Below are positions 21,514 to 28,510 of a DNA stretch of 32,613 nucleotides, one piece after another; the stretch's first letter is position 1; each line of letters opens with the position of its first letter. Position numbers and translations under genes: made by a program. The DNA is from Chloroflexota bacterium (GTDB lineage Bacteria; Chloroflexota; Anaerolineae; Anaerolineales; Villigracilaceae). The DNA lies in the NCBI GenBank assembly GCA_024434165.1, contig QMIW01000045.1, forward strand, positions 1-32,613. The letters run 5' to 3'. The notes beneath the pieces were generated by a model. The model was not told where the DNA came from, searched no databases, and saw only the letters and a list, made by a program, of their open reading frames with translations.

Positions 21514-21604
21514 GTCATTGCGAGGAGGCGGCAGCCCGGCGAAGCACTCTCATACTATTTGTGAGATTGCTTCGGGCAAAGGGCAAGAGCGCCCTCGCAA
21601 TGAC
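21514..21604. repeat. 91-bp palindromic repeat (GTCATTGCGAGG...)
   Basis: GTCATTGCGAGG (21514-21525) and CCTCGCAATGAC (21593-21604) are perfect 12-bp ends. Inside, GAAGCA and CTCTCA on the left mirror TGAGAT and TGCTTC on the right. The ends match a repeat type I know as widespread between genes in many bacterial genomes. It fills the mraY-murD gap and probably forms a long hairpin in the operon mRNA. Confidence 0.75.
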
Positions 21605-21616
21605 GATTGAAACGAT

Positions 21617-23038
21617 ATGACCAATTGGATCAACACCCGCACCCTCATCCTCGGAGCCGCCCGGCAGGGACTCGCCCTTGCCCGCTGGCTCTCCCGCCAC
21701 GGCGCGCGCGTGACCTTGAGCGATTCGCGCCGCGAGGAGGAACTTGCCCCCGCGAAGCAATCGCTTGCGGATGTGAACGTCTCGTGGGCGCTGGGCGGGC
21801 ATCCGCTGGAACTGCTGGACAAGACCGACGTGCTTTGTCTCTCCGGCGGCGTGCCGCTGGATTTACCCATCGTGCAGGAAGCCGTCAAACGCGGCATCCC
21901 GCTTTCCAACGATTCACAGATTTTCATGGAAGTCGTCCCGTGCAAAACGATTGGTATTACCGGCTCGGCTGGCAAGACCACAACGACGACGCTGGTGGGT
22001 GAGATGGCGAAATTGGACCGCAGACCGCAGACCATTGACCATGGTTTGTCCGCCGTCCATCGTCCATCGTCCATGGTCTACATTGGCGGCAACATCGGCG
22101 ACCCGCTCATCAACTACGTGGATGAGATGACTGCCGACGACATCGCCATCCTGGAACTGTCGTCCTTTCAACTCGAGCAGATGACCATTTCCCCGAACAT
22201 TGCGGCGGTTCTGAACGTCACGCCGAATCATTTGGACCGGCACGGCACGATGGAAGCCTATACCAGCGCCAAGGCGCGGATTTTGGATTTCCAATCTGAA
22301 AACGACACGGCGATTCTTGGGCGCGATGATAAAGGCGCGTGGAGTTTGAAAAACCGCGTCAAAGGCAGGCTGTTGACCTTCAGTTTGCAGGAGTTGGAGG
22401 AAGGCTTGAACGGCGCATATCTCCATCACGACGGTTTATTGAGCCTGCGCGAGGGCTTTGCCTACGTTCCGCTCCTGCTGCGCGAGAAGGTGCAGCTGCG
22501 CGGCGACCACAACGTGGCGAACGTATTGGCGGCGTTCACCATCGGTCACGCGGCTGGCTTCAAACTGGACGATATGCTCGAAGCCGTGGAGGAATTTCGC
22601 GGTGTGCCGCACCGCCTGGAATTTGTCCGCGAATTGCGCGGCGCGCGCTGGTACAACGACTCGATTGCCACCGCTCCCGAACGGAGCATGGCGGCGATCC
22701 GCTCGTTTGATGAGCCGATCGTGCTTCTGCTCGGCGGGCGCGATAAAAACCTCCCCTGGGGCGAACTCGCCAAACTCGTCCACGCGCGCGTGGATCATCT
22801 CGTGGTCTTTGGCGAGGCGGGGGAGATGATTCAGAAAACCGTAACAGCCGTCGGCGGGGAACGAAGCGTGGATGTCCGCCGGGCGCAGACGCTCAAAGAG
22901 GCGGTGGCGCTTGCAGCGGAGGCTGCATCCGATGGCGATGTCGTCCTTTTATCGCCGGGGTGCACCAGTTTCGACGAGTTCAAGGATTTTGCGGAGAGAG
23001 GAGAAGCGTTTAGAAAATGGGTGTTGGAACTTTCGTAA
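21617..23038 (+). CDS. murD: UDP-MurNAc-L-Ala:D-Glu ligase MurD
   Basis: MurD adds D-Glu to UDP-MurNAc-L-Ala. The 473-residue protein shows the N-terminal UDP-binding fold ('LILGAARQGLALARWL'), the ATP loop 'GITGSAGKTTTTT' (113-125), 'GGNIGDPL' (157-164), 'ELSSFQLEQM', 'NVTPNHLDRHGTMEAY', 'RGDHNVANVLAA' and 'LLLGGRDKNLPW'. Between the ATP loop and 'VYIGGNIG' there are about 21 unexpected residues (about 133-153), encoded by a heptamer array; the reading frame is kept. The start at 21617 fits the family, but no Shine-Dalgarno is visible, since a palindrome lies just upstream. Its end overlaps ftsW by 22 bases. Confidence 0.96.
   Translation: MTNWINTRTLILGAARQGLALARWLSRHGARVTLSDSRREEELAPAKQSLADVNVSWALGGHPLELLDKTDVLCLSGGVPLDLPIVQEAVKRGIPLSNDSQIFMEVVPCKTIGITGSAGKTTTTTLVGEMAKLDRRPQTIDHGLSAVHRPSSMVYIGGNIGDPLINYVDEMTADDIAILELSSFQLEQMTISPNIAAVLNVTPNHLDRHGTMEAYTSAKARILDFQSENDTAILGRDDKGAWSLKNRVKGRLLTFSLQELEEGLNGAYLHHDGLLSLREGFAYVPLLLREKVQLRGDHNVANVLAAFTIGHAAGFKLDDMLEAVEEFRGVPHRLEFVRELRGARWYNDSIATAPERSMAAIRSFDEPIVLLLGGRDKNLPWGELAKLVHARVDHLVVFGEAGEMIQKTVTAVGGERSVDVRRAQTLKEAVALAAEAASDGDVVLLSPGCTSFDEFKDFAERGEAFRKWVLELS
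22017..22079. repeat. In-frame array of nine heptamers inside murD
   Basis: Nine consecutive 7-bp units fill 63 bp: the first four are of type ACCGCAG/ACCATGG and the last five of type GCCGTCC/ATCGTCC. The halves are roughly inverted; GACCATGG (22037-22044) and CCATGGTC (22071-22078) are exact complements. Since 9 x 7 is a multiple of 3, the array reads through as 21 codons without breaking murD. Confidence 0.8.
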
Positions 23039-27514: not shown

Positions 27515-28456
27515 ATGTTTATGACCAAAACCCTTTCCGCCGCCGATATTGTGCGCCAGAAGTTTGGCGATGCCGTGCAGGAGAACGTCCCGCTTGCGCC
27601 GTTTACATCCGCGCGCATCGGCGGACCGGCGGACGTTCTGCTCACGGTCAAATCTGCGGATGAACTGGCGGGTGCGATGCAGTTGATCTGGGAGCATGGC
27701 ATGCCCTATTACATCCTCGGCGGCGGCTCGAATGTGCTGGTCAGCGACAGGGGCTTTCGCGGGGTGGCGGTTTTGAATCGGGCGAAGGAAGTCCGCTTTG
27801 AGACGGGCAGCCAGCCCACAGTCTGGTGTGAGGCGGGCGTCGTCATTGCCAACCTTGCCAGGCGCTGCGCATCCAAAGGATTGGCTGGACTCGAATGGTC
27901 GGCGGCAGTCCCCGGCACAGTGGGCGGCGCGGTGTATGGCAATGCGGGCGCGTTCGGCGGCGACATGACTCACAACCTCATCTGGGCTGAACTGCTGACG
28001 AAGAACGGGCGCGAACGATTTTCGCTGGAGCAGATGGGTTACGGCTACCGCACAAGCGTTTTGAAACGGCATGAAGTCGAAGGAATCGTGTTAAGCGCAT
28101 TGTTGAAGTTAAAAAATTCAACCAAAGAGGAAGTGTCTGTTAAAATCGAACAATTCAGCGAACGCCGAAAAGCCACACAACCGCCCGGTGCGAGCATGGG
28201 TTCCATGTTCAAGAACCCTGAGGGCGATTATGCCGGGCGTTTGATCGAAGCCGCGGGTTTGAAGGGCGCGCGCATCGGCAGCGCTGAGATCAGCACGCTG
28301 CACGGAAATTTTTTCATCAATCACGGCGAGACAAAGGCAGAAGACATTCGTGCCTTGATTCATCTGGCGCAAAAAACGGTGTTCGAGAAATTCAACGTGA
28401 AATTGGAATTGGAGATCGAATTGGTCGGCGACTGGCAGCCGATCACTGATCACTGA
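27515..28456 (+). CDS. murB: UDP-N-acetylenolpyruvoylglucosamine reductase MurB
   Basis: MurB reduces UDP-GlcNAc-enolpyruvate to UDP-MurNAc with NADPH and FAD. The 313-residue protein has 'YILGGGSNVLVSDRGF' (FAD binding), 'GLEWSAAVPGTVGGAVYGNAGAFGGD', 'YGYRTSVL', and 'SMGSMFKNPEGDYAGRLIEAAGLKG', with the catalytic Ser before Phe-Lys-Asn-Pro. The acidic 'LELEIELVG' closes the active site. This is the shorter, type II form found in Gram-positive-like bacteria. M3 (27521) is an alternative start. The last residues (ITDH) and the stop come from a heptamer array. Confidence 0.96.
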   Translation: MFMTKTLSAADIVRQKFGDAVQENVPLAPFTSARIGGPADVLLTVKSADELAGAMQLIWEHGMPYYILGGGSNVLVSDRGFRGVAVLNRAKEVRFETGSQPTVWCEAGVVIANLARRCASKGLAGLEWSAAVPGTVGGAVYGNAGAFGGDMTHNLIWAELLTKNGRERFSLEQMGYGYRTSVLKRHEVEGIVLSALLKLKNSTKEEVSVKIEQFSERRKATQPPGASMGSMFKNPEGDYAGRLIEAAGLKGARIGSAEISTLHGNFFINHGETKAEDIRALIHLAQKTVFEKFNVKLELEIELVGDWQPITDH

Positions 28457-28510
28457 TCACTGATTACTGATCACTGATCACTGTACCTGGAGATTAGAGA
28501 CTAGAGATTG
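28443..28510. repeat. Two heptamer arrays between murB and ddl
   Basis: TCACTGA is repeated about six times (28443-28483, one unit TTACTGA), then GAGATTA, GAGACTA and GAGATTG follow at 28490-28510. Because 7 is not a multiple of 3, the first array puts TGA in every frame; it provides the murB stop. The space is otherwise empty and ddl starts 8 bp later. Confidence 0.8.

Follow-up and report, generated by a model that had tools for sequence, protein, structure and literature searches.

Rickettsia palindromic elements (RPEs), as excerpts of their description have it, are dispersed repeats of 105-146 bp that lie in intergenic DNA and, fused in frame, in conserved protein genes; one host enzyme that was tested kept its activity (PMC2229807). 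REP elements of the GTAG/CGTC families are described in the available parts of PMC3733652 as short inverted repeats inside ORFs, many of which are replication and repair genes. The cyanobacterial STRRs are 7-bp, hairpin-capable, intergenic repeats, and at one genic site, P6b of the Nostoc tRNA-Leu intron, degenerate heptanucleotide repeats of two motif classes occur together with indels of other sequence (excerpts of PMC2670836 and PMC3488679). In Beggiatoaceae, TAACTGA heptamers form direct repeats that are mainly intergenic; 10 sets lie inside ORFs in reverse orientation, and the forward orientation gives stops (PMC4679880, in part). Archaeal Borg tandem repeats are portrayed in the accessible text of PMC9879509 as recently formed, located in ORFs in about half of the cases, and making disordered segments. 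In the literature searched, which was largely without subscription journals, no description was found of translated heptamer arrays in Anaerolineae, nor of a recurrence of many heptamer families at a single coding site and across several core genes.

The array considered here lies in a 32,613-nt stretch of Chloroflexota DNA (the window) from a draft genome of 4.4 Mb in 173 contigs. The host ORF matches the TIGR01087 murD profile with 365 bits (cut-off 212, E 5.3e-109). Its neighbors, likewise assigned by profile search, are mraY upstream and ftsW, murG, and murC downstream, with the ftsW match falling under the curated cut-off. The named relatives found with MurD are mostly labeled Anaerolineales, Anaerolineae, or Chloroflexi; one nearer relative is Candidatus Villigracilaceae. 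The whole array takes up positions 22016-22078, i.e., 63 bp or codons 134-154 of murD, and encodes 21 residues (Table 1); the peptide stretch DRRPQTIDHGLSAVHRPSSMV comes from this array-bearing loop. Nine in-frame heptamers had been read here by the initial annotation at 22017-22079, which is the same array, one base on, and this reading is confirmed. Tandem Repeats Finder (score 40) detects just the 3′ portion of the array, at 22054-22078.

Table 1. Features of murD and its heptamer array (positions in the window).
Feature	Position	Strand	Basis
murD (UDP-N-acetylmuramoylalanine--D-glutamate ligase), array-bearing, 473 aa	21617-23038	+	TIGR01087, structure model
Conserved left border, P-loop and helix GKTTTTTLVGEMA	21971-22009	+	MurD comparison
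25-residue variable loop KLDRRPQTIDHGLSAVHRPSSMVYI (10 residues in plain relatives)	22010-22084	+	MurD comparison
Left arm, four GACNNNN heptamers: GACCGCA GACCGCA GACCATT GACCATG	22016-22043	+	sequence
Right arm, five inverted heptamers (NNNNGTC): GTTTGTC CGCCGTC CATCGTC CATCGTC CATGGTC	22044-22078	+	sequence
Conserved right border GGNIGD	22085-22102	+	MurD comparison

The heptamer periodicity of the murD loop is not due to chance. Its identity at lag 7 is 0.63 versus a mean of 0.26 in codon shuffles, a value matched by none of 2000 shuffles and by none of the same-length control stretches within the same murD. The two halves of the array are inverted, as had been noted, with imperfect 16-nt arms that are 88% complementary. 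The hairpin they had been proposed to form is weak, with an RNA fold little better than that of shuffles (z -1.79; 10/200 shuffles fold equally well).

Repeats also occur at the murD start. Most of the mraY-murD gap in the window is filled by a palindromic repeat (21514-21604), which consists of GTCATTGCGAGG/CCTCGCAATGAC arms plus an inner inverted pair. Nine relatives (L042, L045, L046, L050, L051, L052, L057, L059, and L065) carry heptamer arrays at or directly before the murD start, in a short gap, and the families of these arrays, judged by eye, differ from those in the loop. The MurD reading frames of L058 (10001-11371) and L036 each contain one stop in the assembly, and L058 was omitted from alignment A2 because of it.

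That the array is absent from some close relatives was borne out by plain 10-residue loops, KLAKGDRAFV in G018 and KIARGERAFV in G025, both in MurDs that are 85% identical to this one over the aligned part. With 25 residues here versus 10 in the plain loops, the net difference amounts to 15 residues or 45 bp, the 21 array-coded residues replacing about 6 residues of the plain loop. The initial annotation had expected relatives to lack exactly 63 bp, which is not the case; its gain of 21 residues holds for the residues coded by the array, not for the net length. Compared to two solved MurDs, the loop forms a 16-residue excess.

MurD loops were read in 52 of the 57 genomes of the genus, and G003, G014, G017, G030, and G034 have no usable loop. 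Fifty loops were tested together, and those of G078 and G080 were added on the tree without a p-value from this test; L046, whose loop is identical to that of G080, gives p 0.000 of 500 shuffles. The murD genes of G004 and G005 are partial, as is that of G064, which was kept off the tree. Twelve of the 50 loops have 10 residues, one has 12, one has 13, and 36 have at least 14. Eight of the twelve ten-residue loops end with RAFV, and similar 10-residue loops are found in the sister clade (L055, L056, and L061). Tested against codon shuffles, 29/50 loops have a lag-7 signal at p<0.01, which follows length: 29/36 loops of at least 14 residues, 0/1 of 13, and 0/13 of up to 12 residues reach this level. 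In the remaining 7/36 long loops, no significant period 7 was detected. Four of 18 MurD loops from other families of the order also show period 7 at p<0.01, with four different units (L247, L249, L252, and L262).

The reading frame is open through each of the 52 loops read in the genus. The observed lengths (10, 12-18, 20, 23-25, 34-37, and 43 residues) follow no steps of 7 residues, and the proposal that heptamers must come in multiples of three is unsupported; spacers and partial units set the frame. Relatives in which unrelated DNA of the same length encodes conserved residues at this place were not found; all ten 25-residue loops of the genus carry heptamer arrays, which belong to the GAC kind in nine cases and to a different one in G064. 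The interpretation given by the initial annotation is thus partly supported overall.

At least six heptamer kinds occur in the MurD loops of the genus: GAC, GGATGAA/TTCATCC, GCATTCT, AATTCAG, ATCGTAA, and AAGTTGA/CAACCTT (G064). The loop of this genome belongs to the GAC kind, which includes a GACCGAG/GGACAAA form. In L051, which is not in the genus list, the MurD loop is filled by a palindromic repeat of a different design. Loops of L218 (AroA), L065, and L245 (both MurD) combine heptamer arrays with a CCCTGAGC..GTCGAAGG-like stretch, whose peptides read ALSKVEG, ALSEVEG, and ALSEAEA.

The same MurD loop has probably been entered many times in the order by different repeat families. Their turnover was followed on a single-gene MurD tree of 62 rows that was built by a quick method with the loop cut out, and in which support is strong for 14 and weak for 21 of the 59 inner branches. 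G081 stands in this tree for L049, with which it shares the loop. Nine loop states were labeled by hand. The loops of G010, G024, and G028 are mixed, and the decayed loops of G004, G011, G015, G026, G067, and G068, in which no GAC pair at spacing 7 is left, were nevertheless labeled GAC because the aim was a low change count. The nine states need 30 changes on the tree, and the distinction of repeat versus none needs 14. When GAGGACA is merged into GAC, 29 changes of state are left, and 26 when nine uncertain rows are also removed. Starred branches alone force at least seven changes of the GGATGAA label and at least four of the plain one. Sister pairs with unlike states are L056 (plain) with L057 (GGATGAA) and L059 (GGATGAA) with L061 (plain); a slower tree of 51 rows joins the same pairs.

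A search of the genome for the same array, as outlined in the initial annotation, revealed a dispersed kind, with 198 matches to the four-unit GAC pattern when overlapping matches are counted. The pattern is present in 52 of the 61 genomes searched (own genome included), with up to 620 matches, and the other nine have none. The reversed pattern was not taken as a null because its counts are high and differ between genomes, and heptamer arrays may themselves take the form of a reversed pattern. GGATGAA doublets were found in 36/61 genomes, GCATTC triplets in 12/61, and AATTC triplets in 9/61. Among 32 genomes compared, the GCATTCT pattern is most frequent in precisely the three whose loop is of the GCATTCT kind. 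Family abundance, in counts that include matches inside the loop itself, predicts the loop family for GCATTCT (p 1e-4, three holders) and AATTCAG (p 0.02, one holder); the relation is not significant for GAC (p 0.10) and GGATGAA (p 0.17). The loop repeat of L051 recurs at no fewer than 39 places besides murD in its own genome, with 85-93% identity over 73-92 bp. These figures come from 40 of 104 candidates scored, in which 43 matches correspond to 40 places, three palindromic places being matched on both strands.

Arrays are dispersed and mainly intergenic. In a lag scan of 79 named loci and the window (1.49 Mb), 42 arrays were found for lag 7 at a threshold of 0.72, compared to 18 for its harmonic 14 and 0-13 for other lags; at a lax threshold of 0.64, lag 7 does not stand out and several lags give as many. 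From 49 arrays in the 80 loci, 27 lie outside conserved ORFs, which sum to 89% of the DNA scanned, 6 lie at ORF ends, and 16 are internal (11 in murD from 10 loci, 3 in murG, and 2 in murC). A GATCACT array of about six units at 28427-28491 in the window spans an ORF end and the gap before the next ORF, and a similar unit is translated in the AroA of the relative L219.

The build of the GAC element was studied in 40 stretches round GAC places (up to contig C88) and the window, a non-random sample of 240 kb with 56 clusters. Among the 23 clusters with both orientations, 21 have GAC units followed by inverted ones, with 3-5 units per arm and a gap of -4 to 30 bases. In 21 elements chosen for carrying GAC, adjacent units resemble each other no more than non-adjacent units do (0.566 versus 0.567), and the match of the arms in hairpin register (0.53) shows no gain over off-register matches (0.51-0.68). 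Snap-back copying of one arm into the other is therefore unsupported in these elements, as the register match is no better and neighboring units are no more alike.

Genes other than murD harbor such arrays as well. Thirty-eight of the 56 GAC clusters fall into crude ORFs, and 20 of these are at least 15 codons away from both ends. The ORF belongs to a recognized family for 16 of these 20 interior clusters (15 by Pfam, murD by NCBIfam), and the hosts include RecJ, a molybdopterin oxidoreductase, a NuoE/NuoF-like protein, shikimate dehydrogenase, MutS, MutL, and EPSP synthase (AroA). AroA and RecJ exceed solved structures at the array, by 18 and about 16 residues, respectively. In shikimate dehydrogenase, the GAC-type array aligns to solved relatives without a gap, and a second repeat-like peptide, QIENRKSKIVNRKS, makes up a 12-residue excess. 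Array-like DNA in the thiamin pyrophosphokinase, an acetylpolyamine-type deacetylase, and an amine oxidase of the own genome aligns with no gap or a gap of one residue. Not every genic array is an insertion, because the array-like DNA of four proteins aligns with a gap of 0-1 residue; some look like overwriting or chance. For the NuoE/NuoF-like protein, the alignment to solved structures begins after the array and is uninformative about it. A MutS encoded on the minus strand of the own genome (L186:1-3216) has an intein-like region after about residue 638 and a TCAGTGATCAG-type array translated at about residue 392.

AroA was matched in 52 of the 57 genus genomes and read in 50, with partial genes in G005 and G013. 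At site 1, the loop is longer in 38/50 genomes, with period 7 at p<0.01 in 32 and at p<0.05 in 37; the remaining 12 loops are short, and 11 of them take the form E(A/S/T)xN(N/D/A)CPPV. This result depends on the window of sequence taken for the test, since with wider stretches only 18/30 loci reach p<0.01. Families identified by eye at site 1 include GAC, AATGCAG, AACGTTA, CATTCTG, AATTCAG, GGTCACT, CATCCTT, and GATCACT. Site 2 (L198-L243) was not found in 5/50, and 33 of the 45 parsed stretches have p<0.01, a count kept as obtained although one of the 45 (L236) is wrong. In most species, site 2 has a strong period 7 while keeping to a constant 12-13 codons, a pattern more suggestive of overwriting under fixed length than of insertion. 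In MurG, heptamer-like inserts at residues 26-31 (judged by a lag-7 value of at least 0.45) were found in six genomes (L049, L051, L052=L143, L074=L145, L088=L141, and L147). Near residue 155, the MurG of G041 (L285) is extended in frame by about 26 residues, and this insertion contains CCTTCGACTTCGC and GCTCAGGG stretches; it shows little period 7 (0.30) and resembles a palindromic repeat, not a heptamer array.

The MurD model has a mean pLDDT of 92 and finds its best match in the MurD structure 8dp2 (Z 43.6, rmsd 2.3 over 432 residues). It places the variable loop between helix 120-134 and strand 154-158. Residues 139-145, its only segment of at least three residues with a pLDDT below 50, lie within the loop. 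The initial annotation had proposed to test the array-coded residues for a surface loop; the low-confidence segment falls where this would be expected, and a position at the surface, away from the active site, is predicted from the siting of the loop at the far end of the P-loop helix.

A heptamer tandem that is stop-free on one strand is open in its every frame because 7 and 3 share no factor. Among exact period-7 runs of at least 21 bp in MurD and AroA loops, 14/14 lack stops in each of the three frames, and 8 of these 14 are closed on the other strand. Seventy-one of all 85 exact runs, a count that includes related, non-independent sequences, are open on the coding strand. Where only one strand is open, it is the coding strand in 34/42 runs versus 6/9 for non-coding arrays, and this one-sided orientation bias is not clearly above that of the non-coding arrays.

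The analysis shows that the array lies in frame, that relatives have plain forms, that copies are dispersed, that the loop state changes many times on the tree, and that arrays recur in other genes. Very probably, a dispersed inverted heptamer element, of which the array represents one copy, entered the MurD loop as one of many mainly intergenic repeats that enter or overwrite tolerant protein loops. The element would have entered the loop after the P-loop helix, where its 21 coded residues would supplant about 6. Different repeat families would enter this loop repeatedly in the order, and arrays would likewise reach loops of MurG, two sites of AroA and, in the own genome, RecJ, MutS, MutL, and others. 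Disorder and a surface position of the loop may explain why the peptide is tolerated, and arrays that land elsewhere in genes would mostly be purged. Survivors would be those that introduce no stop and whose total length preserves the frame, and a stop-free heptamer that is open in every frame of its strand would make this repeat class suited to invading genes.

The arrays could also arise on the spot, with slippage and template switching making heptamer tandems in a loosely constrained loop without any donor copy. The many unit families at one site, with sister species that differ, speak for such an origin, as does AroA site 2, where period 7 comes with little length change in most species; a survey cited in the available part of PMC4679880 found that heptanucleotides outnumber the other repeat classes in most genomes, and polymerase slippage was proposed. 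The repeat of the L051 loop, however, stands at 39 or more other genomic places (40 of 104 candidates scored), the two-arm build is stereotyped among GAC elements, and the 21 elements chosen for carrying GAC bear no recent tandem-duplication or snap-back signature. We consider an origin without a donor unlikely. A step less probable still is an insert kept for its function, with murD or its neighbors regulated by a binding site or by a hairpin (RNA or DNA) within the mur operon. Its arms are inverted, and there are the arrays at the murD start of nine relatives, yet the fold is weak (z -1.79) without pairing in register, 12/50 genus loops have the plain length, and the same pattern occurs in unrelated genes. 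A selected RNA hairpin was rejected, as its fold is weak. Most sequences stem from metagenome assemblies, which could raise the question of an artefact or contamination in draft genomes; with all 52 genus loops read open in frame, and aroA arrays on a contig of 4,742,491 bases (L226), the chance of this is negligible. A RAYT transposase was considered as the mover and set aside, since Y1 transposases, matched over the family cut-off in 55/61 genomes (three matches in the own genome), are so common that their presence alone tells little.

Under the favored reading, in which dispersed elements enter the loop, one loop of an essential enzyme is used repeatedly by mainly intergenic repeats of several unrelated families, and other core genes are used likewise. 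The relatives would provide dozens of natural replicates for measuring entry mechanism, enzyme cost, and turnover rate, and the suitability of 7-bp repeats for coding DNA would find a simple explanation in their openness independent of frame. A further, more speculative idea that we hold only tentatively is that loops of Anaerolineales housekeeping proteins serve as permanent entry sites for heptamer arrays: once an array is in place, its inverted arms might make the site fragile, and repair might rewrite it with another family, intergenic-type DNA thus replacing the coding loop in frame again and again. If this were true, frame-independent stop-free units would let genes and intergenic arrays exchange DNA freely.

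Among the known systems, the STRRs share with these arrays the tandem 7-bp units and the dispersed, mainly intergenic location. In contrast to P6b, which is an intron RNA stem, the arrays here are translated in essential enzymes. TAACTGA differs in being one fixed unit that is repeated directly with one inverted exception, and the consulted text of its description mentions no recurrent landing loop. Borg ORF repeats, as excerpted, have perfect units with a length divisible by three, whereas the units here are degenerate and count 7 bp. The repair-type hosts MutS, MutL, and RecJ recall the REP elements; these are palindromes tagged at one end by a tetranucleotide, unlike the tandem heptamers in two arms found here. 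CGTC does occur inside the right arm of the murD array, with no single tagged end, and the L051 loop repeat may be nearer to REP. With the RPEs, the arrays have in common the in-frame presence inside conserved protein genes, here MurD, MurG, AroA, and RecJ. They differ from them in that 63 bp of degenerate heptamers with imperfect arms take the place of a 105-146 bp palindrome with terminal inverted repeats, and in that several unit families replace each other at one site. By analogy, the array would thus work like an RPE without being a member of that family by size and build, and the phenomenon stands outside the intracellular bacteria in which coding palindromes were described.
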